Assembly: GCA_007695285.1 (NCBI GenBank)
Contig: REEC01000192.1
Span: 1 to 64,000, forward strand
DNA: 64,000 nucleotides
Direction: 5' to 3'
Source: Spirochaetaceae bacterium
GTDB taxonomy: Bacteria > Spirochaetota > Spirochaetia > DSM-27196 > PXBQ01
The position numbers and the translations under genes were made by a program. The notes under the pieces were generated by a model. It was not told where the DNA came from. It ran no database searches and saw only the letters and a list, made by a program, of their open reading frames with translations. Below, piece after piece: positions 296 through 37,829 of this stretch (its first letter is position 1; every line of letters starts with the position of its first letter).

Positions 296-3200
296 ATGTT
301 GGGCCACGCAATCGTATTACTCGTCGTAGTGATACTTCTATCCGTGTATCGGCAGCTCGACAAGAACAACCGATCTCTTGAAAAAGTCAAACGATACGTC
401 GACAAGGCCGAAGGCGAGCTCGATCGGATCGTGCAAGACAAAGCCACGATGATCAAGGACATGGGCATCGAGCTCGAAGTCCACCAGCGCGCCGCGCGCG
501 AGATTCTCAAACGTTTACAGGCCGGCGAACAAGGGCTCAGCGAACGCGCCGAGGCGTTCGTGAGCGTATCGAAGAAGATCGACGAGTACGACCGGACGGT
601 AGATGAACTCGTTGAGATGACGCGTCGTGCCGAGGAAAACATCAACCGCGTTCGTGACGAGTCTGAATACGTCGACAAGGTGGGACGCCGGATCAAGGCG
701 GCTCAGGTGCGTATGGAAGAGCTCGAATCTCGCGTTCCGGCGATCGTACAGGCTTTTGAACTGTCCAACGAAGAAAAACTCACGAAGGTACGCGACACCG
801 CGCTGCTCCGCATCGACGAAAAAGCCGAGAGCCTCGCGGAACAGATCGGTAGCGCCGAGGCGCGCGTACACGAGTTTGAGAGTTTTGTGTCCGACCTCGA
901 GGATCGCGCCCGCGGTTTTGGCGACTCGACCGAATCCGATCTCCGCGAGTTATACGACCGGCTGCTCGAGCAGGCGACTGTCGACGCCGAACGAATCCGT
1001 GAAGAGTTCTCCTCAGAGGTGGCGCGGGCCGATCACAGCGTCGAGCTTTTCCGTGAGAATATCACGGGCGTCGAGCGGCAGTACGAGGAAAGACTCGAAG
1101 AACTTGCCGAAAAAGGACGGAGCTTTCAGACCGACGCGCTTGCCGGACTCAAAGAGACAATCACCTCCGAGGTCGAGAAGGCCCGCATGGAGCTCTCGGA
1201 CCGGATCGATTTTACGCGCGCGGAGCTCGAAACCGCTCGCGACTCGGTTCTAGAAGACTTCGAGAAATATCGGCTTGACGGCGTAGAGAATCTCAAGGAG
1301 ATCAAAGCCGATCTCGATGAGAAGGCCGACTCGCTAGAAAGCGCGTTGTACGAGCTCGAGCGAACGACCGAGGACCGGATCTCGCATGCCGAAAACGTCG
1401 GTCAGGAGCGCGCGTCGGAAGTCACGGCGGCGCTCGAGACGGAGTTGATCAAGCGAACCGATGAGGTTCGGATCGCGATGGACAAACGTGTAACCGAGTT
1501 GAACGAGTCCGCATCGGCGTCGCACGAACAAATCGACGGAATGTTCGAGGAACTGCGCAAACGCGTGGACGACTGGACGACACGGACGAACAACTACATC
1601 TCGGAACTCGAGGAACAAGTGCGGTCGCTGAACGAGTCGTCCTCCGAAGCGCACCGGCGGCACTGTGAGACGATCGATCGGCACATCGAAGAGACGCGCG
1701 CGCGGATCGACGAGTATGAAAGCGGCGTCGCGAATAGCATCGAAGAACTCAAGAAAAGGCTTGGAGAGACCGACGATACGGTTCGGCGCGAGTTTGATCG
1801 GATTTCGCACGATGTCGAGAGTGCGACCGAAGCCATGCAGCGCGAATTGGAGCAAGGTGTTGCGCAGGCGCGTGAAAGCTCCGCACGACGGCTCGATGAG
1901 TTTGCCGACGAGATCGCCAAGAACGTCGAGGCGATTCACGCGCACATTGTCGAAACGCGAACCGGACTCGAGAATCAGCTCGAAGAGGTGCACGCGGACG
2001 GGAAGCGTCTCGCTGAAGACACAAAGACCATTTTTGAAGAGCACGTTCGAGATGTCAAGGAAGGTGTCGATGCGGATAGCGGTCGCGTCTCGGAGATTCG
2101 GGCGGAGATAAACCAGAGAATAGCCGAACTCAACTCTGAGGTGACCAAAAACGTGGCGGACGTATCGTCGGCGATTCTCCGCCACCGCAACGAACTGAGC
2201 CGCGACCTCACGTCTGCGGTCGAAAACATCGAGAAGAACGTCGTTTCGTCGGTTGAGAAGCGCCTCGAAGAGTACGAGGACTCGGTGACGTACCGGTTTA
2301 CCCGGATCGAATCGGTCAATTCTGACCTCGATGACCTCGAGCGAAACCTGCGCGACTCGATGGATCGCGTGACCGCGCGCCTGCGCGAGGAATTCAATGC
2401 GTTTGGGCGTGAACTAGCCGAGCAGCGTTCGGCCGACAAATCCGAGGCGGACGGTCATTTGCGCGCGATCCGCGACGAGATGCAGAGCATCGAGACGGGG
2501 ATCGCGGAGCTGAAGCAGCGCGCGTACGACAACGTATCGGAGAAGCTCAAGGTGTTCGAGGACGAGTTCTTCACGGATCTGCGCGAACGGAGCGCGGGCA
2601 TGGAGTCGCGCGTCACTGAGTGGCAGACCGAGATTACCCGTCGTCTCGACGTGATCGGAGAAGAGGGAAACCGGAAGCGAACCGAACTCGAGTCGGCGTA
2701 CACGGAGGAGCTGCGCGGTTCTTTGTCCGAGTTGCAGGAGCGTGTCTCGCACCAGTTCGAGCGGTTTGAGTCGGGTGTCAAAGACCGGATCGGCGCGACC
2801 GAGACGACGATCCGCGATTTTGAAGGTTCTGCGCGGAACGACATAACCGAGATCGAAGAGCGAAATCGGCAAATTTTTGAGGACGAGTTCGGTCGCTACA
2901 CGCGCGCGATCGAAAACGAGTTCGAGACGTTCAGGTCGAACACACACGATCGCATCGATCGGCTCAAAGACGAGTTCGAGTCGACGATCTCGACGGTCGA
3001 CACGGCGATTTCATCGCAGCGCGACACGATGGACGCGATCTCGTTGAGCCTTGATACGTTGAGCTCGGATCTCGCGGAGAAGACTCGCGACGCGCTGTCG
3101 GACTTCACCCATCGTTACAATGATCTGAAAAATCAGATCGAGCGCGATGCTCACGATCTGATCGAAGAAGCGACCGGTGCATCGCGAGAGTTCAAGTCAT

Positions 3201-4210
3201 TCGTGACCGAGACGCGCGATAACTTCTCGACGATGCAAACGAGGGTGTTCGCGAAGCTGCACGATGAGACGAACGATCTCGCAGCGACGCTCAAAGAGAT
3301 AGACAAAAAGCAGCGCGCGTTTGCGGAACAGACAAAGATCTTCGAGCGCGCCGATACGCTCAAGATTTCCTTGACCGAGAATATCGAGGAGCTCAAGTCG
3401 TCGATCACGCGCGTCGAGAGCCAACGAGGTGAGATTCGGGAGATCGAGTCTCAGTTCGGCAAGATCCGCAAACTCGCGAGCGAAGCCGGGGACAAACTCG
3501 GGAAGTTCATGGCCGAGAAGCGCCGTATCGACGTGCTCGACGATGATTACAAGAAGCTTATGAGTCTCTCGCAGACGGTCGATCTGAAGCTCGAAACGCT
3601 CACGGCCAATCACGACGCGGTTCAAGCGATGCAGGCGCAGCTTCGGAATCTCGAGGAACTCGAGAAGGACGTCGAGAGTCGGTTCGAACGCCTCGAGAAG
3701 AAACGCGGCATAATCGACGTGACGACCGAAGGCGTGGACCGTAACTTCCAGGCGCTCGAAAACATCGAGTCGCGGCTGACCGAGATCTCGTCCGAGCTCG
3801 AAACGTTACCCGATCGTGTCGAAGAGCTCTCGACGCAGCTTCGGTCTATCGCGGCCGGGAAAAAAGAGGCCGACCAGGCGGCGCGGCAGCTCACGAATCT
3901 CGAAAAGACGCTCGGGAGCATCGAGCAGCGGATGGAGTCGCTCAACACCGCGCGCGAGTGGCTCGCGCGTACCGAGACGCGGCTCGAAGAGGTCCGACAG
4001 GAAGCCGAAGATCAAGTGAAGTTGCTCGGCACGATCCTGAAGGACGAAAACAAAGCCGCTCCGCGCCAGAAAGGCGCACCGTCGCTGTCCGCCCGCGATA
4101 CGGTCACGAAGCTCGCGCGGCAGGGTTGGAACGTCGATGAGATCTCGCGCGCGGTGAAGATCGGCCGCGGCGAGGTGGAACTCATACTCGAGATCAACTC
4201 CAAGAAGTAG
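296..4210 (+). CDS. Giant membrane-anchored coiled-coil protein (SpiroCoCo-like)
   Basis: 1304 aa, N-terminal TM helix (IVLLVVVILLSVY) followed by >1100 aa of charged heptad-like sequence and a short C-terminal HTH-like segment (LARQGWNVDEISRAVKIGRGEVELILEI). Confidence 0.85.
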   Translation: MLGHAIVLLVVVILLSVYRQLDKNNRSLEKVKRYVDKAEGELDRIVQDKATMIKDMGIELEVHQRAAREILKRLQAGEQGLSERAEAFVSVSKKIDEYDRTVDELVEMTRRAEENINRVRDESEYVDKVGRRIKAAQVRMEELESRVPAIVQAFELSNEEKLTKVRDTALLRIDEKAESLAEQIGSAEARVHEFESFVSDLEDRARGFGDSTESDLRELYDRLLEQATVDAERIREEFSSEVARADHSVELFRENITGVERQYEERLEELAEKGRSFQTDALAGLKETITSEVEKARMELSDRIDFTRAELETARDSVLEDFEKYRLDGVENLKEIKADLDEKADSLESALYELERTTEDRISHAENVGQERASEVTAALETELIKRTDEVRIAMDKRVTELNESASASHEQIDGMFEELRKRVDDWTTRTNNYISELEEQVRSLNESSSEAHRRHCETIDRHIEETRARIDEYESGVANSIEELKKRLGETDDTVRREFDRISHDVESATEAMQRELEQGVAQARESSARRLDEFADEIAKNVEAIHAHIVETRTGLENQLEEVHADGKRLAEDTKTIFEEHVRDVKEGVDADSGRVSEIRAEINQRIAELNSEVTKNVADVSSAILRHRNELSRDLTSAVENIEKNVVSSVEKRLEEYEDSVTYRFTRIESVNSDLDDLERNLRDSMDRVTARLREEFNAFGRELAEQRSADKSEADGHLRAIRDEMQSIETGIAELKQRAYDNVSEKLKVFEDEFFTDLRERSAGMESRVTEWQTEITRRLDVIGEEGNRKRTELESAYTEELRGSLSELQERVSHQFERFESGVKDRIGATETTIRDFEGSARNDITEIEERNRQIFEDEFGRYTRAIENEFETFRSNTHDRIDRLKDEFESTISTVDTAISSQRDTMDAISLSLDTLSSDLAEKTRDALSDFTHRYNDLKNQIERDAHDLIEEATGASREFKSFVTETRDNFSTMQTRVFAKLHDETNDLAATLKEIDKKQRAFAEQTKIFERADTLKISLTENIEELKSSITRVESQRGEIREIESQFGKIRKLASEAGDKLGKFMAEKRRIDVLDDDYKKLMSLSQTVDLKLETLTANHDAVQAMQAQLRNLEELEKDVESRFERLEKKRGIIDVTTEGVDRNFQALENIESRLTEISSELETLPDRVEELSTQLRSIAAGKKEADQAARQLTNLEKTLGSIEQRMESLNTAREWLARTETRLEEVRQEAEDQVKLLGTILKDENKAAPRQKGAPSLSARDTVTKLARQGWNVDEISRAVKIGRGEVELILEINSKK

Positions 4211-20756: not shown

Positions 20757-20855
20757 ACGGTAAATATCTACGGTTGCCGCTTCGGACACAACGGAATAGA
20801 ATAGGCCGGAAGTCGGCGTGTATTTAAGGTGCGCGTCAAGTTTCCTGGAGCATTT

Positions 20856-21875
20856 ATGATGAAAGTCAACGGTACGCACCGTGACGGCGGTGCGGTTAAG
20901 CGAATAACCTCGGCTATTGCCGGCATTGCGCGACAACGTTTCACGATTATGCTGATTCCGCATTCAGAACGGCGCGTCGTGAACTTCCAGATAAACGCAG
21001 TCGCGGCGGTGTTTGTTGTCGCGATGTTTTTCGTGGTTCTGGGGTCGTTTTTTTACGTCGCGACGGTGTTTACCGGTTCATCGCGACTCGTCACCGAGAA
21101 GTCGGATGCGCTTCGAACGACCGAAGCGAGCCTCGATTCGGTTCTCGACGAGGTTTCCCACGTGATTCAGCTGTCCCGGACGTTCGAGTCCACGTTGCAA
21201 TCGACTTTGGCGGGCCTCAATCTACAAACGGGCGATCGGCTCGCGCGCGACGTCTCGGCGACCGGGGATCTCTCGGAGTTTCTTGACCTGCAGCAAGTCG
21301 ATTCCGACACTGTTCGGGAGGTGTACGAACTTCAACGGCTTGCCGGTGTCCTGCGTGACTCGGTCGATCCGTTGACCGGTATCAAAGACATCCTCGAAAC
21401 CCAACGACGATTTCTCTCGGATATCCCGAACGCGTGGCCGTTGATGGGCGGACGCGGCATTGTAATGATGGAGTGGGGACCGAATATTCATCCGTTTACG
21501 GGTCAGTGGTATATGCACGACGGCATCGATATTGCGGACATGACCGGTGCGCCGGTCGTGGCAAGCGCGAACGGCAAAGTGAGCGAGATCGGCTCCGATC
21601 CGCTGGGATACGGAAACTACATCTGGATCAGGCACAAGTATGGGTTCCGTACACGATACGCGCACTTGAACACGGTTGAAGTAACCGAAGGTGAAGATGT
21701 GTTCCAGGGACAGCGTATCGGAACCGTCGGTGATACCGGAATGGCGACCGGGCCGCATCTGCACTTCGAGTTGTGGTTGGGTACCGACGTGCTCGATCCC
21801 GCGCATTTTCTCAAAGTTCAAAATACTTTCAACCGCCGCTTGCCGAACCAGCGCGTCGTGAACCGGGTGCGGTAA
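20856..21875 (+). CDS. M23-family murein metallopeptidase, membrane anchored
   Basis: N-terminal TM, coiled coil, C-terminal MHDGIDIADMTGAPVVASANGKV...GYGNYIWIRH...GDTGMATGPHLHFEL. Confidence 0.9.
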   Translation: MMKVNGTHRDGGAVKRITSAIAGIARQRFTIMLIPHSERRVVNFQINAVAAVFVVAMFFVVLGSFFYVATVFTGSSRLVTEKSDALRTTEASLDSVLDEVSHVIQLSRTFESTLQSTLAGLNLQTGDRLARDVSATGDLSEFLDLQQVDSDTVREVYELQRLAGVLRDSVDPLTGIKDILETQRRFLSDIPNAWPLMGGRGIVMMEWGPNIHPFTGQWYMHDGIDIADMTGAPVVASANGKVSEIGSDPLGYGNYIWIRHKYGFRTRYAHLNTVEVTEGEDVFQGQRIGTVGDTGMATGPHLHFELWLGTDVLDPAHFLKVQNTFNRRLPNQRVVNRVR

Positions 21876-21892
21876 CGCGGGTGTAAAGAAAT

Positions 21893-22354
21893 ATGAGAAA
21901 AGTTCATGATGTTGAAAGTGACCTTTACGTAAATTCGATCGTTGGAGAGGGTTCGCGGTTTCGTGGTCATCTCGAGCTGTCCGGTCTCATGCGGATCGAC
22001 GGCGATTACTCCGGGTCGGTGAAGACCGACGGAAAAGTGATCGTCGGGCGGAACGGTCGCGCGGACTGCACGATCGAAGCTTCGACCGTCGTAATCGGCG
22101 GTGTCTTTCGTGGCAATGTCTATGCGACCGACAAAGTGATCGTCCTGTCGGCCGCGCTGGTTCTCGGAAACCTCTATACACCGCGGCTTGTCGCAGAGGA
22201 GGGGGTTCTGCTCGATGGGGCGATAATGGTCAGCGGGACGCCCTCCCCGGTCGGTGGCGACGGCGAGAACGCTCGTTCCTCCGGACTCATCCGCCGACGG
22301 ACCCGGAAACACGAAACGTCGAGCGTCGGGACCGGTACACCCGCGGTGAAGTAA
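21893..22354 (+). CDS. Bactofilin (polymer-forming cytoskeletal protein)
   Basis: SIVGEGSRFRGHLELSGLMRIDGDYSGSVKTDGKVIVG... beta-helix repeats. Confidence 0.88.
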   Translation: MRKVHDVESDLYVNSIVGEGSRFRGHLELSGLMRIDGDYSGSVKTDGKVIVGRNGRADCTIEASTVVIGGVFRGNVYATDKVIVLSAALVLGNLYTPRLVAEEGVLLDGAIMVSGTPSPVGGDGENARSSGLIRRRTRKHETSSVGTGTPAVK

Positions 22355-28946: not shown

Positions 28947-29276
28947 GTGGCGTCGAGTAAGTTGACGAAGGCCGAAATCGTGGAGGAAATCGCGGAGTCC
29001 ACGGGCCTAAGCAAAAAAGACATCCACACGGTTGTTGATCTTTTTTTCTCACAGGTGAAGAACGCCCTGCTCGACGACAAGGTTATCGAGTTTCGGGGAT
29101 TCGGCACGTTCGAGATTCGGACACGGAAGGGGCGCGAACGCGCGCGGAATCCAAAGACCGGTGAGACGGTTTCGGTACAGGATCACGGCGTGGTGGTTTT
29201 TCGGCCGGGCAAGGAGTTGAAAGAAGCATCGTGGGAACTGAGAGCGGGGCAGGGTGAGTCGAAAAAAAATACGTAA
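28947..29276 (+). CDS. HU/IHF-family DNA-binding protein
   Basis: LTKAEIVEEIAESTGLSKKDIHTVVDLFFSQVKNALLDDKVIEFRGFGTFEIRTRKGRERARNPKTGE; GTG start. Confidence 0.93.
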   Translation: MASSKLTKAEIVEEIAESTGLSKKDIHTVVDLFFSQVKNALLDDKVIEFRGFGTFEIRTRKGRERARNPKTGETVSVQDHGVVVFRPGKELKEASWELRAGQGESKKNT

Positions 29277-30969
29277 AAGTTCGCGAGGGACCGTTCGTTC
29301 GACCGCTTCACGGAGAGGTGGGCACGCGAAGACAGCGGTTCCCGACGAGTTCGAGCAGATCGGGAACGGTTCGGACCGCACCGGCGGAAAAAAGGTTGGA
29401 ACAGACATTCTCCTCATCGTCGCGGGTGCGATCTTGTTTTCCCTCGCGTTCCCGAATGTTCTGACAAAGTGGGGTATGTTCCCCGTTGCGTTCATTTCGC
29501 TCGTGCCTGTCTTTGTCGTCGTTCGCCGGGCAACGTGGATCGAAGCTCCTTTGTACGGCCTTCTCTACGGCTTCCTGACGTACACGATTTTTAACTACTG
29601 GCTGATGGTCTTCCACCCGCTTTCGATCTTCATCGTTCCCGTCATTTACGCATCATATTTTTTCGTCGTGTTTCCGATTCTCAAGGTGGTCGACACGGCG
29701 TTTCCACGGTACGGATATCTCGCGCAGCTCGTCGTGTGGATGGCGTACGAGTATCTTCGGATACAGGGCTTCCTTGGGTACGCGTACGGGATCATCGGTT
29801 ACTCGCAGTACCTTTTCTCTCCGTTCATCAGGATCTCGGCGATCACCGGCGTGTGGGGTGTCTCGTTCCTCGTTGCGTTCCCTTCGGCGTACTTGGCGGC
29901 CGCGCTGGCGGACGGAATCTCGAGTGTCCGTGGATTCGTGCGGCGGCACAGAATCGATGCGGTGGCGTACGCGGTCGTGTTCTTAGCCGTGCTCGTGTAC
30001 GGTCTTGCGACATCGCGCGATTATTCGGAGGCGCCTACGGTTCGTGCCGCGTTGATCCAACAGGATATCGATCCGCACGTCGGCGGCCTGAGCGCGTATC
30101 GGGGTTCACTCGACGCGTTGGTCCGACAGAGCACCGCCGCGCTCGAGAGCGATCCTGAGATTGAGATCGTGATCTGGTCGGAGACTTCGTTTGTCCCGGC
30201 GATCGAGTACCATACCCGATACCGCGAGAGTCCCGAAATGTGGGCTTTGGTACGCGAACTTCTTGAGTTCCTCGACGGCCAGACGGTGCCGTACGTGATC
30301 GGAAACGGCGACGGTCAGCGCCGAAGAAATGCAGCCGGGGAGCTGGTGCGGGTCGATTACAACGCGGCGCTTGTGTACGACCGGGGGGAGTTCATCGACA
30401 CGTATCGCAAAGTCCACCTCGTTCCGTTCACCGAACATTTTCCGTACGAGAGGACTTTTCCATGGCTGCATCGCCTGCTCGTCGAGAACGATACGACATT
30501 CTGGGAACACGGCGATGAGTTCACGGTGTTTGAGGCGGCAGGGATGAAATTCTCGACGCCGATTTGCTTTGAGGACACTTTCGGGTATCTGTCGCGCGAG
30601 TTCATTCGCGCCGGAGCGGAGGTGATCGTGAACCTCACGAACGATTCGTGGTCAAAGTCTGTCCCCGCGGCGATGCAGCACATGGCCATGGCCGTGTTTC
30701 GCGCGACCGAGAACCGTCGATCGGTCGTTCGGAGCACGAACGGGGGCATGACCGTTTTCATCGACCCGAACGGTAGGATCACCGACATGTTGCCTGCGTT
30801 TGTCGAGGGATACCTGATCGGGGACATCTCTGTTTATACCGACGAAACCACGGTGTACACGCGATACGGCGACTGGCTCGCGTGGCTTTTCCTGTTCGGA
30901 GCAATCGGCTTGACGGTGGGGGCGGTGGTGCTCGTGATAGTGCGCCGGACACACGCCACGCTACCGTGA
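29254..30969 (+). CDS. lnt: Apolipoprotein N-acyltransferase (copy 1)
   Basis: Multi-TM N-terminus plus CN-hydrolase domain with IVIWSETSF (E), YRKVHLVPFTEHFPY (K), TPICFEDTF (C); 23-nt overlap with the HU gene. Confidence 0.92.
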   Translation: MSRKKIRKSSRGTVRSTASRRGGHAKTAVPDEFEQIGNGSDRTGGKKVGTDILLIVAGAILFSLAFPNVLTKWGMFPVAFISLVPVFVVVRRATWIEAPLYGLLYGFLTYTIFNYWLMVFHPLSIFIVPVIYASYFFVVFPILKVVDTAFPRYGYLAQLVVWMAYEYLRIQGFLGYAYGIIGYSQYLFSPFIRISAITGVWGVSFLVAFPSAYLAAALADGISSVRGFVRRHRIDAVAYAVVFLAVLVYGLATSRDYSEAPTVRAALIQQDIDPHVGGLSAYRGSLDALVRQSTAALESDPEIEIVIWSETSFVPAIEYHTRYRESPEMWALVRELLEFLDGQTVPYVIGNGDGQRRRNAAGELVRVDYNAALVYDRGEFIDTYRKVHLVPFTEHFPYERTFPWLHRLLVENDTTFWEHGDEFTVFEAAGMKFSTPICFEDTFGYLSREFIRAGAEVIVNLTNDSWSKSVPAAMQHMAMAVFRATENRRSVVRSTNGGMTVFIDPNGRITDMLPAFVEGYLIGDISVYTDETTVYTRYGDWLAWLFLFGAIGLTVGAVVLVIVRRTHATLP

Positions 30970-30989: not shown

Positions 30990-31018
30990 TTGACAGAACA
31001 CGAGTGTTGTAGGACAAT
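30990..31018 (+). promoter_or_regulatory. Putative promoter of REC / cyclase-tail / bactofilin operon
   Basis: TTGACA - 17 nt - GACAAT. Confidence 0.45.
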
Positions 31019-31038: not shown

Positions 31039-31785
31039 ATGACACAAAAAAGTACTATTCTCATCGTCGATGATGAACAGATTAACCTCGACTTCTTTGA
31101 TGTCATGCTTTCTCGGCTTGGATTTAACGTCGCGACGGCTGTTGACGGCGAAGACGCGCTCGAAAAAGTAGTTGAGGTCAATCCTGACCTCATTATCCTC
31201 GACAACGTAATGCCCCGGCTTTCCGGATGGGAAGTCACCAAGACGCTGAAGCGTGATGAGAATTTCGCCGAACACGCGGATACACCGATAATCATGTTTT
31301 CCGCTATGGACGACGTCAAGGACAAGATCGAGGGTTTCGAGCTCGGAATCGAAGACTACATTACGAAACCGTACAACTTTTCCGAAGTCCTCGCCAGAAT
31401 CAAGGCCGTTCTTCGGAACCGCGATCTTTCAACTCAAGTAATCCAACGCGAACGAAGAATCGCGTTGATCGAGTCGCTAAACAAATCGCTCGTGTACTTC
31501 ACCGAGCACTTGCGAGCTCCCGTTCTCGATCTGTTGGAGAAGGCCGATGCGCTCGACGCAAACAACGCCGAAAGGGTCGGTGAGTTGGTCGATGCGGTAC
31601 GCGGTGAGGCCAAGACGATTCTCGCAACGCTCGACGGACTCAAAGACGAAATCGCGGAGCTTCAATCGAAAGGTGATGAGATGAAAGCTCGCGAGGTGAC
31701 GCTCGAGATGCTTGACGAGAAGTACCAGAAACACTTCCGAGACTATAAGGAGCGCCAAAAGGATCTCGACGAGGTGAAGAAGTGA
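31039..31785 (+). CDS. Response regulator (REC) with C-terminal coiled coil and no DNA-binding domain
   Basis: ILIVDDEQ, LIILDNVMP, YITKPYN; last ~110 aa helical/coiled coil. Confidence 0.88.
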   Translation: MTQKSTILIVDDEQINLDFFDVMLSRLGFNVATAVDGEDALEKVVEVNPDLIILDNVMPRLSGWEVTKTLKRDENFAEHADTPIIMFSAMDDVKDKIEGFELGIEDYITKPYNFSEVLARIKAVLRNRDLSTQVIQRERRIALIESLNKSLVYFTEHLRAPVLDLLEKADALDANNAERVGELVDAVRGEAKTILATLDGLKDEIAELQSKGDEMKAREVTLEMLDEKYQKHFRDYKERQKDLDEVKK

Positions 31786-32003
31786 TTACCGAAGAAAAAC
31801 GCAAAGTGCTTGATCACTTTGCGCAGGGACGGCGGCTTTACAAGCTTATGGAGTTTGAGCAAGCACGTAATCACTTTGCCGCGGCGTTGAAAATCGACCC
31901 GAACGACGGCCCATCAAAGGTTTACTTCGCACGGTGCAAACATTACATGGAAAGCCCGCCCCCGGAGGATTGGGACGGCGTTTTTATAATGACATCAAAA
32001 TGA
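31782..32003 (+). CDS. TPR microprotein resembling the C-terminal tail of bacterial adenylate/guanylate cyclases
   Basis: 73 aa: FEQARNHFAAALKIDPNDGPSKVYFARCKHYMESPPPEDWDGVFIMTSK; GTGA overlap upstream, ATGA overlap downstream. Confidence 0.75.
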   Translation: MITEEKRKVLDHFAQGRRLYKLMEFEQARNHFAAALKIDPNDGPSKVYFARCKHYMESPPPEDWDGVFIMTSK

Positions 32004-32404
32004 AGAACGAGCACACCACGACTCCAAAAACCGCGACGCGGCTCGGTCGTGAGACGGCGCTCAAAGGGCGCTTGCGGTTTACCGACTCGGTCTCGATTCG
32101 AGGCCGCTTTGAAGGCGAGATCGACGCCGATGGATTTCTGTTTGTCGAAGACGGCGCGGACGTCCGCGCAAATATACGGGTTCACTCGATCGTGATCGGC
32201 GGGATCGTGCACGGGAACATCGTGGCCGAAGGGCGCGTTGAGATGCTCCCGGGCGGACGCGTCTTCGGAAATGTGAAAGCCGCGAAAATCAGAATTGCCG
32301 ATGGAGTTGTTTTCGAAGGCAAGTGCGAAATGGTAAAAAACGCGTCGAACGTGGATATTTTTTCCCAATCGCTGGAAGAGTTGAAGACGGCTGCCGCGAG
32401 ATAA
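32000..32404 (+). CDS. Bactofilin (second copy)
   Basis: ETALKGRLRFTDSVSIRGRFEGEIDADGFLFVEDGADVRANIRVHSIVIGGIVHGNIVAEGRVEMLPGGRVFGNVKAAKIRIADGVVFEGKCEM. Confidence 0.88.
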   Translation: MKNEHTTTPKTATRLGRETALKGRLRFTDSVSIRGRFEGEIDADGFLFVEDGADVRANIRVHSIVIGGIVHGNIVAEGRVEMLPGGRVFGNVKAAKIRIADGVVFEGKCEMVKNASNVDIFSQSLEELKTAAAR

Positions 32405-32467: not shown

Positions 32468-32497
32468 TTGACATATTTCAAAGGCACGGTCTATACT
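32468..32497 (+). promoter_or_regulatory. Putative rho promoter with about 160-nt leader
   Basis: TTGACA - 18 nt - TATACT. Confidence 0.5.
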
Positions 32498-32667
32498 TTG
32501 AAGGACTAGTGCGATCCCAGACTGTCCTGTTTTCGGCCGCGAACCGCAATGTGATGACGGCCGTTTGTGTGCGCCGGGTTTTTCCGGAATTCGTCAGTAT
32601 TTCATGAATCCGAATCAATATACAGGATTATCAAACAACACCACCGACCTATCATATGGAGAGCTTG

Positions 32668-34536
32668 ATGGCGATCATCCGCAAGAAAAATACGTCTACG
32701 AAAGAACCATCTCAAAAGCAGCCCGACGCGCAAACTGAACTGGAGTTGCAGGAAAAGCCAATGAGTGAATCACACGAAGGAGGCTCGTCGGACGAGCTTC
32801 AGCACAAGACCGACCACCGCGGCGACGGTGAGAACGGACAAGACGGTGAGAACGCACCAAGCGGGACCACCGAACGCGACAGCGAGAAAGACCGCGGAGT
32901 GGACACCGGGCAGAACGGTGAGAACGACCGTTCTACCGAGACGCGAAAGCCGTCGCGTCGAAAAAAGGTCCGCGTCTCGGTGAATAAAGACTCCGGTAGT
33001 CGCGAATCCGGCAACAGAGATACGCGTTCCCGCGATCGCGGTGGAAACGGTGAGCGAGCCCGGCGCGACGGCGGTCCACAGAGCCGTGATGCAAATGCGC
33101 AGAGCGCGGCGACGGCCGATGACTTCTCGGATGAGCTCACTCGCGCGTCTGAGGAAACCCCGATTGCCGAGCTCGGTGGAGACGACGACTTTTTCGCGCG
33201 CGATACGACGTATCCCGGGAAGTTTCTGAGAAAGACCGTCGGTGAGCACATGCGGGACGACAAGAGTCTCAGTATCAACGATCTCACGAACTTGAACATG
33301 AAGGACCTGCGGCGTTTTGCTGCACGGCTCGGGATTACGCAGGAGAATCTGCTCGCGCTGAAGAAACAGGAAGTCATTTTCGCTATTCTGAAGGCGCATA
33401 CCGAACGGAACGGGACGATTTACGCGTACGGTTCGCTCGAAATACTGCCCGACGGGTACGGGTTTCTCCGGTCGCCGCAGAACAGTTACCTTCCCGGGCC
33501 CGATGACATCTATATTTCGCCGTCGCAGATCCGGCTTTTCAACTTGAAGACCGGTGACACGGTTTTCGGCCAAATTCGACCGCCGAAGGAAGGCGAGCGG
33601 TTCTTTGCTATGCTGCGCGTCGAGACCGTCAACTTCGACACCCCAACCGTCGCTCAGACGCGGATTCCGTTTGACAACTTGACACCGCTCTACCCGGACG
33701 CGCGGTTGAATATGGAGACGCAGAGCGGCGACGTCTCGACCCGAATGATCAATTTGTTCTGTCCTATCGGGAAAGGGCAACGCGGGCTCATCGTTTCGCC
33801 TCCCCGGACCGGAAAAACGGTTTTGTTGCAAAAGGTCGCGAACGCGATCACCGAGAATCACCCGGAAGTGTATCTGATCGTGCTTTTGATCGACGAACGG
33901 CCGGAGGAAGTCACCGACATGCAACGCAACGTCGAGGCCGAGGTCGTCTCATCGACCTTCGATGAGCAGGCGACGCGGCACGTGCAGGTTGCCGAGATGG
34001 TACTCGAGAAGTCTCGGCGGCTCGTCGAGCACAAAAAAGACGTCGTGATTTTGCTCGACTCGATTACGCGTCTCGCGCGCGCGTACAATCAGACCGTTCC
34101 GACATCAGGCAAGATTTTGTCGGGTGGTGTCGACTCGAACGCGCTTCATAAACCGAAACGTTTTTTCGGCGCAGCTCGAAACATCGAGGATGGAGGAAGC
34201 TTGACGATCGTCGCGACCGCGCTCGTCGAGACCGGCAGCCGTATGGACGAAGTTATTTTTGAGGAGTTCAAAGGCACCGGCAACATGGAGATCAACCTGG
34301 ACCGGCGCATCTCCGACCGCCGGCTGTTTCCGTCGATTAACATCAAGAAATCGGGAACACGGCGTGAGGATCTTCTGCTGACCGAGGAGGAGCTTCAAAA
34401 GATGTGGGTGCTGCGGAAGGTCATAAACCCGATGGACGACGTCGAGGTTATCGAACTTCTGATTGACAGAATGCGGAAAAGCAAGAATAATGACGCTTTC
34501 TTGCGGTCGATGAACACATCGGCGAGCATGGACTGA
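32668..34536 (+). CDS. rho: Transcription termination factor Rho with long disordered N-terminal extension
   Basis: Rho RNA-binding domain ([30 protein letters not shown]), [31 protein letters not shown]-like [15 protein letters not shown]. Confidence 0.96.
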
Positions 34537-34856: not shown

Positions 34857-36494
34857 TCAATCTCCGGCGGCGTCGTCGGCTCGGTCGAGCCGGTGGTGCC
34901 GGTCTCTCGTGTGGACCCGCGCGACCAAAAAAACCGTTACAAGAATAAGAAACAAAATCGGGACTATGTCGCCGGTCGCCGAGTAAACGGTACGGTGCGA
35001 CGGTGCGTGGACCGGAACCGTTACGTGTAGATACGCGGCGGTAAACATCGGCAACGAGTCGATGGTTCGCCCGTGTGCGTCAAGAACGACGGTGAACCCG
35101 GAGTTTGTCGAACGCACCAGGGTGCGACGTGTCTCGACCGTGCGGAACAGCGCCGCGACGAAGTGTTGATACTGCGCCGAATCGGTGCGCGACCACGAGT
35201 TGTTCGTCAGATTCACGTGCAGATCAGCGCCCGCGTGGTCGAACCGGCGGACGACGTTTGCAAACGCGTCCTCGAAACAGATCGGCGCGGAAAAACTGTA
35301 CTCGTGCCCATCAGCAGAAAAACCGAACAACCGCGATTCGTTGCCCGGCGTCCAGACGCCGAAAATTCCGACGACCGACCGAAAGAACTCACGGACAAAA
35401 CTGAACTCCCAGAACGGGATTTCCTCGGCAAACGGGACGAGCTGTTGTTTACCGTACCACTCGGAGACCGATCCGTCCGGTTTGATCATGATAACCGCGT
35501 TCATGTAGTCGTGGGCGTCCGGCGTGACGCGCCACGGGGCGCCGGTTACGAGCGGTGTCTCGATCTCGCGAAGGAATTGTGTGAACGGATCACGTGCGGG
35601 GAAGCGGCCGAAAAATTCCTGATTCTCGGGATACGGGCGGCGCAGCGACGTTTCACTCCAAACCACGATGTCCGGCCGACCGTGCTCGATGATCGCTTCT
35701 CGTGTAAGGCTCTGGAGTACCAACAGCGATGACTCTTCGTTTCCTGTTTCCCACGAGTCGGTGTTCGGTTGAATCAGAACTGCCGTGAACTCGCCGACGA
35801 TCGGCACCTCCTGGCGAAGCCTAACCATGCCGAACCCCGCGAACGTCACGACGAGCGCAAGAGCCGAAACGATGTACCCGAGCGCGCGTCGTCGTTCTTT
35901 GGGATCCGGGAAGCCGGTGCCCGGAGCGGATATGAACTCGAGAATCGATGCGTTCAGGAATACAACGACAAAGGAAAGTCCCCAAACGCCGAACAGCTCA
36001 CCGGATTGGATCAGAGACTGCACGCTCGATACCGTGTACGCTGCCAAACCCCACGGATACGCGAGGAAACCGCGCGACTTCAGGAGTTCGTACGCCACCC
36101 ACGCCGCCGCGATCAAAACGGGCCGATACGGAAGAACACGATCGCGCGACGACAAAACCGTCGTCAAAGACGCCTTCGGCGACGATATGACCCAGAGGAA
36201 CGGGAAAAAAAGCGCGTTGTACGCAGCGTACCCGACCGTGACTCCCCCGATAGTCCAGACTGAGAACTCTCCAAAGAACATCAGCCAGTAGTTCGAGAGG
36301 AGAGTCGAGACGACGCCGAACACGACACCGACGGTTGCCGCGTGGCGAATCGAGCGAACACGCACAACCGCCAAAAAAACGGGAACCACAGCAATCGGGC
36401 CAATAAGCGGCGATCCAAACGGGAGAAGTTCATTGGGCAAAGAGACCGAGTACAAGAAACCCGAAAAAGCGGCGAGAAGAAGAGAAGTCGACAT
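34857..36494 (-). CDS. lnt: Apolipoprotein N-acyltransferase (copy 2)
   Basis: TM segments, IVVWSETSL (E), EWYGKQQLVPFAEEIPF (K), APICFEDAF (C), NLTNNSWS. Start taken at ATG 36494 (MSTSLLLAAFSG). Confidence 0.9.
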   Translation of the reverse strand: MSTSLLLAAFSGFLYSVSLPNELLPFGSPLIGPIAVVPVFLAVVRVRSIRHAATVGVVFGVVSTLLSNYWLMFFGEFSVWTIGGVTVGYAAYNALFFPFLWVISSPKASLTTVLSSRDRVLPYRPVLIAAAWVAYELLKSRGFLAYPWGLAAYTVSSVQSLIQSGELFGVWGLSFVVVFLNASILEFISAPGTGFPDPKERRRALGYIVSALALVVTFAGFGMVRLRQEVPIVGEFTAVLIQPNTDSWETGNEESSLLVLQSLTREAIIEHGRPDIVVWSETSLRRPYPENQEFFGRFPARDPFTQFLREIETPLVTGAPWRVTPDAHDYMNAVIMIKPDGSVSEWYGKQQLVPFAEEIPFWEFSFVREFFRSVVGIFGVWTPGNESRLFGFSADGHEYSFSAPICFEDAFANVVRRFDHAGADLHVNLTNNSWSRTDSAQYQHFVAALFRTVETRRTLVRSTNSGFTVVLDAHGRTIDSLPMFTAAYLHVTVPVHAPSHRTVYSATGDIVPILFLILVTVFLVARVHTRDRHHRLDRADDAAGD

Positions 36495-36602
36495 ACCGTG
36501 CAAATGATACACAAAGCGTCGGGTGATGTCACTAACGGAGCCGTCAAAAAGACCCGAGGGGGCGATTTTGCTACAGTTCGGATCAAAGTAAAAAAAAAAG
36601 AC

Positions 36603-36631
36603 TTGAAATTTTTCCATTATATGAGTTAATA
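36603..36631 (+). promoter_or_regulatory. Putative promoter of GHMP kinase-like gene
   Basis: TTGAAA - 17 nt - TTAATA in AT-rich divergent region. Confidence 0.35.
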
Positions 36632-36677
36632 TAGGGCCTTCGGAAAATTTCCACCAGGAACGGGAGGCCATAATCTC

Positions 36678-37829
36678 ATGACCGACGTCACGGATATCCA
36701 CCGTAAAGAGCACGGTGATTCCCCAGACGTTGTCGTTTCCGCCCCCGGTGTCGTGAACCTCGTCGGGACTCACACGGAAGAAAGCGGCGGTCTCGTTCTC
36801 ATGTGCGCGCTCGACCGTCGAGTGACGGTTGCTCTCTCAAAAAGGCCCGACACCGGATTGCGGTTTTTCGCGCACGATCTCGGAGAACGGAAACGGACCC
36901 AGATATCCGCGGTGAAGTTTCGGCGCGAAGACAGGTGGGCCAATTACTTGAAAGGCGTCGTGTACGAGATCGCCCGACGCGGATGGACGATTCGCGGTGT
37001 TAATGTCACCGTGACCGGAGATGTTCCAACCGGCATCGGGTTGGGGTCGTCGATCGCGATGTCCGCGGCGTTCGCGTCGGCTATTGCCGAGTTGTTTGAG
37101 CTTGACATGACGTACCCGGATCTGGTCGAGTGCGTGACGAACGTCGAGGGCGGTTTTGTCGGCGGCTGCGCTTCGCCGGCGTCCGTTCATGCGGTGTTTT
37201 TCTCACGGCCGAACGCCGCGTTTCTCTTTGATGCGACGACGTACGAGTACCGTCCTATTCCGGCCGCCTTGAACCACACACGTTTGATCGTTGCGGACGC
37301 GGGAGTGCGGTGCGCGTACGATGAGAATGAGCATAGGCGAAGGCTCGAAGACGGTCGGACGTGCATGCAGGTAATGCAAAAGATCAACCCCCAGTCTAAT
37401 CTGAGAACGTGCGGCTTGAGCGAGCTTGAAGAGCCCGTTCACGGTTTGTCTGAGACATCGAGACGGCGGTGCAAACATATCGTGATGGAAAACGATCTCG
37501 TAAAAAAAGCGATTGTCGCTCTCGAACGCGGTGACCTCGCGACACTCGGGAGAGTCCTGGTCGGATCGCACGCGAGCCTTCGTGATTTATTTGAGGTTTC
37601 GTGCCCCGAACTCGATTGGTTGGTTCGGCATACGTGCGAGACCGATGGTGTATACGGGTCGAGGCTCGCAGGAGCAGGCGCTGCGAGTTCGGTGTTGACC
37701 CTCCTTGACATCGACGCGCTCGCGCGGTACAGAGTTAGGTTGGGAGAGTACGAACGGATCTTCGGGTTTTCAACCTCGATGTACGAGTGCACCTTGGAGT
37801 CCGGAGTACGTGTCCATGAGCGCGTGTGA
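36678..37829 (+). CDS. Galactokinase-like GHMP-family protein with degenerate motifs
   Basis: APGVVNLVGTHTEESGGLVL (galactokinase signature variant), DVPTGIGLGSSIAMSAAFASAIA, RLAGAGAASSVLTLL. Confidence 0.82.
   Translation: MTDVTDIHRKEHGDSPDVVVSAPGVVNLVGTHTEESGGLVLMCALDRRVTVALSKRPDTGLRFFAHDLGERKRTQISAVKFRREDRWANYLKGVVYEIARRGWTIRGVNVTVTGDVPTGIGLGSSIAMSAAFASAIAELFELDMTYPDLVECVTNVEGGFVGGCASPASVHAVFFSRPNAAFLFDATTYEYRPIPAALNHTRLIVADAGVRCAYDENEHRRRLEDGRTCMQVMQKINPQSNLRTCGLSELEEPVHGLSETSRRRCKHIVMENDLVKKAIVALERGDLATLGRVLVGSHASLRDLFEVSCPELDWLVRHTCETDGVYGSRLAGAGAASSVLTLLDIDALARYRVRLGEYERIFGFSTSMYECTLESGVRVHERV

Follow-up and report, generated by a model that had tools for sequence, protein, structure and literature searches.

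A cyclase-tail microprotein encoded together with a bactofilin in Spirochaetota, with a phospho-receiver as a variable third member

The partners with which spirochaete bactofilins work are the question raised by a locus in a Spirochaetaceae contig, of which a stretch of 64,000 nucleotides (hereafter, the window) was analysed. In Borrelia burgdorferi, the gene for BB0231 (BbbA) is flanked by hbb and rho. A 2026 paper terms BbbA functionally divergent and reserves it for another study, and neither a TPR protein nor a response regulator appears in its main text (PMC13393453). In the window, three consecutive genes on the + strand lie between lnt and rho and encode a receiver-coiled-coil protein, a microprotein and a bactofilin. 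Whether these genes form a functional unit, and which of them make up its centre, was investigated by domain searches, structure models and comparison of gene neighbourhoods.

The first gene (31039-31785, +; ATG start, 248 aa) encodes a phospho-receiver with a helical/coiled-coil C-terminal half, the second (31782-32003, +; GTG start) a microprotein of 73 aa, and the third (32000-32404, +; ATG start, 134 aa) a bactofilin. These coordinates bear out the GTGA and ATGA overlaps by which a preliminary description of this DNA had joined genes 1 and 2 and genes 2 and 3. The locus is anchored upstream by HU (hbb; 28947-29276, +; PF00216, E 8e-30) and apolipoprotein N-acyltransferase (lnt; 29254-30969, +; PF00795/PF20154) and downstream by rho (32656-34536, +; PF07497, E 4e-32), and HU lies 5' of the locus both in loci of the window's class and in loci of Treponema/Borrelia type. 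The promoter-like TTGACA-17-GACAAT reported before gene 1 was recovered by a motif scan as a sigma-70-like site at 30990-31018 (+). Of 28 loci from the window's taxonomic order, 26 have a site scoring at least 10/12 (TTGACA-17/18-NANAAT) before gene 1; such sites occurred in 0.5% of dinucleotide shuffles and in 1 of 167 control windows. The ATGA overlap at the start of the bactofilin gene is local, most relatives having a short gap there. Across all three genes, synonymous changes prevail, with dN/dS values of 0.00-0.10 in 11 close pairs.

Several further features were recorded in the window. Between the bactofilin gene and rho, a strong promoter-like TTGACA-18-TATACT (11/12) is present at 32468-32497 (+). 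Two lnt paralogues on opposite strands, at 29254-30969 (+) and 34857-36773 (-), flank the bactofilin/rho/rpmE region. An ORF of 1304 aa (296-4210, +) appears by eye to form a coiled coil of great length, with a hydrophobic segment at its N-terminus and a short C-terminal end that resembles a helix-turn-helix.

The assignment of gene 3 as a bactofilin was confirmed by a match to the whole 98-position profile of PF04519 (E 1e-25; 89.8 bits, cut-off 27.9) and by similarity to the PDB bactofilin 6ria (E 4e-5). The gene also occupies the hbb-rho position, which it shares with BbbA among the known BbbA and Leptospira LbbA-cluster bactofilins. A second bactofilin (match at 21935-22225, +) is encoded elsewhere in the window, after a gene whose end is M23-peptidase-like by eye (20829-21875); this region (20829-22225, +) represents a classical M23-bactofilin pairing and is separate from the three-gene locus.

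Gene 1 belongs to the response regulators (Response_reg, PF00072, E 4e-27), with the receiver at residues 7-122. The residues D11, D12, D55, S88 and K110 are all present and are invariant in 22 sequences from the order, so that the receiver is intact, as had been proposed; outside the class they are also retained, with one exception (K110E in L036). The proposal that its output is a coiled coil only was likewise supported, since no known output domain (DNA-binding, enzymatic or RNA-binding) was recognised in the C-terminal half of 22 members, and AlphaFold2 (pLDDT 83) modelled that half as long helices only (114-170, 177-217 and 222-243), running on from the last helix of the receiver. EutV, PorX and RssB, which also carry helical segments after a receiver, are among the longest fold matches of gene 1. 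The EutV and PorX matches are loose past the receiver (rmsd 9-15 A), and gene 1 differs from all three in that no known output domain, whether RNA-binding, phosphatase or other, is present. For the C-terminal half, a degenerate histidine-kinase DHp domain was considered because of a similar FxxHLRxP motif, but was rejected, as the families recorded for the 22 members do not include HisKA.

The preliminary description had presented gene 2 as a 73-aa TPR protein related to a cyclase tail. The relationship to cyclases stood. Gene 2 is, however, no multi-repeat TPR protein: the model (pLDDT 93) contains one TPR-like hairpin, followed by a third helix and by a C-terminal peptide that is less ordered and carries a conserved PPxxDWDGVFxMxxK motif (core WDGVxxMxxK), and the Pfam match to TPR_2 (E 9e-6) is slightly below the family cut-off. 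Weaker matches to gene 2 fall within long ORFs, mostly of 430-1060 aa. The tail profile matched the ends of 16 such long ORFs, and cyclase-like sequence directly preceded the tail in all 16; PF00211 was found in each of the 10 tail-bearing ORFs scanned, most of which also carry CHASE2, HAMP or 7TMR-DISM sensors. The last ~70 residues of these class III cyclases are homologous to the microprotein, and the final WDGVxxMxxK is common to both. Unlike the tailed cyclases, the microprotein is free-standing and has no catalytic or sensor domain, and the Pfam scan detected PF00211 in none of genes 1, 2 and 3. Since its homology is to the cyclase tail only, gene 2 is not itself a cyclase; judged by sequence comparison, it represents the TPR-like tail from the C-terminus of class III cyclases as a separate protein, and this tail likely descended from a cyclase. 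A tree based on 73 columns, too few for a firm answer, is compatible with one origin of the microprotein. NCBIfam holds no model covering the microprotein, and a fold search with it returned generic helical and TPR matches only (E above 0.1). One copy (L045, 4793-5003 in oriented coordinates, genome G408 of family f10) diverges after about residue 60 in a frameshift-like manner, which may reflect a pseudogene or an assembly error.

The combination of a receiver in gene 1 and a cyclase tail in gene 2, together with the 4-nt overlap of these genes (GTGA type), which is retained in 18 of the 29 other loci of the order, could be read as the decaying remains of the two ends of an ancestral receiver-cyclase-tail enzyme whose catalytic domain was lost. 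Such decay appears highly implausible, as strong purifying selection acts on both genes (dN/dS of 0.00-0.08 for gene 2 in close pairs), the microprotein is exactly 73 aa long in nearly all copies throughout the phylum, no cyclase remnant lies between the two genes, and tails outside the class usually have no receiver with them. Fusions of the tail with a receiver or bactofilin were also sought and none was seen; among the long stop-to-stop frames around tails, the one in L006 was checked and overlaps the receiver gene.

Conservation of the neighbourhood was examined first in the order, using 30 loci retrieved via the microprotein (including that of the window), and the order receiver-coiled coil, tail, bactofilin was kept in all 29 other loci. 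In 60 further Spirochaetota loci from dozens of families (20 in the class but outside the order and 40 outside the class), bactofilin directly follows the tail in 59, and the sole exception ends near a contig edge. A second collection of 80 loci, partly overlapping the first, contained 73 stand-alone tails, of which 72 are followed by a bactofilin (about 400 nt further downstream in L176) and the remaining one is located where a contig ends. A further seven tails are within long ORFs of Bdellovibrionaceae, Elusimicrobia, a deltaproteobacterium and two other bacteria. The conserved neighbourhood across Spirochaetota that had been put forward as a check was thus observed, with the receiver as its variable part: among the class loci outside the order, 17 of 20 have a receiver 5' of the pair, whereas outside the class it is present in 8 of 40 loci and missing from the other 32. 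The pair also occurs in Alkalispirochaeta alkalica (L202), a cultivable and non-pathogenic spirochaete.

The free-standing tail was restricted to Spirochaetota among the groups searched. No stand-alone tail was found in 95 and 101 genomes of two other phyla, those of two of the bacteria with long-ORF tails, all matches there being part of ORFs 413-985 aa long. An apparent occurrence outside the phylum, in 'Caldithrix sp.' (L137), was discarded because its coordinates are those of G141, a member of Spirochaetota according to the genome set.

These distributions bear on another account of the locus, namely that the three genes are mere neighbours in an operon of convenience beside hbb, lnt and rho, with no common function. 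The housekeeping nature of hbb, lnt and rho would fit such an account, as would the ability of the receiver and the tail each to be lost while the bactofilin remains. It is nevertheless very unlikely, as the tail-bactofilin pair was seen in every locus with enough downstream sequence and stays intact across five or more neighbourhoods unrelated to one another: hbb-lnt-REC, flgL-fliW-csrA, STAS-polyprenyl synthase, acpS and aldo-keto reductase (all but the first were named by eye from sequence). That the two genes stay paired while their surroundings change is the chief reason to think that their products work together, and a functional microprotein-bactofilin partnership, predicted from these gene arrangements, is the best-supported claim of this analysis. 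This pair, which the preliminary description had not singled out, is the centre of the module, because the receiver is more dispensable, as the pairs without it outside the class indicate; in addition, two loci (L111 and L124) keep the receiver and the bactofilin while the tail is missing.

Losses were further explored in 20 genomes picked mostly for absence of the microprotein. In this sample, several loci have the arrangement hbb-(lnt)-bactofilin-rho and lack both microprotein and receiver, in agreement with the placement of BB0231 in Borrelia; they are called Treponema/Borrelia-type here, a label that we infer from gene order. The bactofilins at the Borrelia-type loci match the profile of the gene 3 family (E 1e-36 to 4e-37), and the Borrelia-sized genomes examined retain such a bactofilin at the hbb-rho place, in contrast to the window locus, where microprotein and receiver are present as well. 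The C-terminal DIFS...LK motif of the bactofilin was considered as a docking site for the tail or receiver and was rejected: it is kept in Treponema/Borrelia-type proteins that have neither partner and is absent in tail-bearing proteins outside the class. As the motif follows the class and not the presence of either partner, no docking site was identified on the bactofilin.

The relationship between the microprotein and the cyclases was addressed by a tail profile search over 394 Spirochaetota genomes, which gave matches in 242. Based on match strength, which involves a judgement, 164 genomes were counted as microprotein-positive, and some weak cases were left unassigned. A comparison by eye of the microprotein and PF00211 genome lists showed a PF00211 match in 164 of 164 microprotein-positive genomes and a tail match in 0 of 103 genomes without PF00211, both counts ignoring kinship; a Fisher value for the association likewise takes no account of phylogeny and is not to be taken for a probability. 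Within one genus, G282 has the microprotein and one cyclase, and its relative G194 has neither. On the other hand, genomes of family f10 have kept cyclases, many with tail matches, and the microprotein is mostly missing from them; the link to cyclases is therefore one-way at best.

Based on this co-occurrence, the G282/G194 difference and the fold and C-terminal motif common to microprotein and cyclase tails, the microprotein could be primarily a regulator of class III cyclases that competes with or mimics their tails, the bactofilin merely localising it and the receiver tuning cyclic nucleotide output; the operon would then put a cyclase regulator onto a scaffold. We consider this unlikely. 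It is the bactofilin gene to which the microprotein is linked in the genomes, a cyclase gene was not seen adjoining the pair, tailed cyclases persist in f10 mostly without the microprotein, and cyclases are common in the phylum, which makes their co-occurrence weak evidence. The partnership of microprotein and bactofilin may perhaps still be linked to cyclase signalling.

Taken together, these data are consistent with a spirochaete-specific bactofilin module in which the microprotein would act as an adaptor, with a tie to cyclases and control by the receiver, a reading given a probability of about 0.5 from the sequence comparisons. Its parts differ in strength. The microprotein would probably bind the bactofilin or its filaments, acting as a small adaptor or cap. 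More tentatively, it might connect the scaffold with cyclase signalling, through recruitment of cyclases or competition with their tails, a step suggested by the C-terminal peptide and TPR-like surface that it has in common with class III cyclases. It is possible, with similar reservation, that receiver phosphorylation alters coiled-coil pairing and so governs how the complex of microprotein and bactofilin is assembled or placed; that phosphorylation would control bactofilin assembly is a plausible prediction. The persistence of the bactofilin without either partner in Treponema/Borrelia-type genomes, where tailed cyclases can be present when the microprotein is not (f10), argues against the module. 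A bolder and rather improbable extension is that of a phospho-switched bactofilin scaffold with the cyclase-tail fold as a docking code, in which cyclases would have the tail in cis and their access would be set by the free microprotein of 73 aa, tying cyclic-nucleotide signalling to cell-body architecture.

Bactofilins with dedicated partners are already known, and the M23 endopeptidase-bactofilin modules, such as BacA-LmdC of Hyphomonas and CcmA-Csd1 of Helicobacter (PMC13393453), likewise join a bactofilin to a conserved functional partner. In those modules the partner is a peptidase, whereas in the window locus the partners are a cyclase-tail microprotein and a receiver. The open-access literature on bactofilins (most subscription papers being outside this scope) yielded no account of the module, the microprotein or the receiver partner, and the earlier statement that no system with a REC-coiled-coil/tail/bactofilin architecture has been described held within it.

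These findings have several implications for the spirochaetes. BbbA-type bactofilins are conserved in this group and their function is unpublished, so that a genetic partner found phylum-wide provides a direct handle on them. Moreover, the cyclase tail, for whose role no account was found, occurs here as a natural free protein tied to the gene of a cytoskeletal polymer, which makes its binding partner testable. The near-constant co-encoding of microprotein and bactofilin, together with a receiver in the operon, suggests that the cytoskeleton of spirochaetes receives a signalling input that has not been described.
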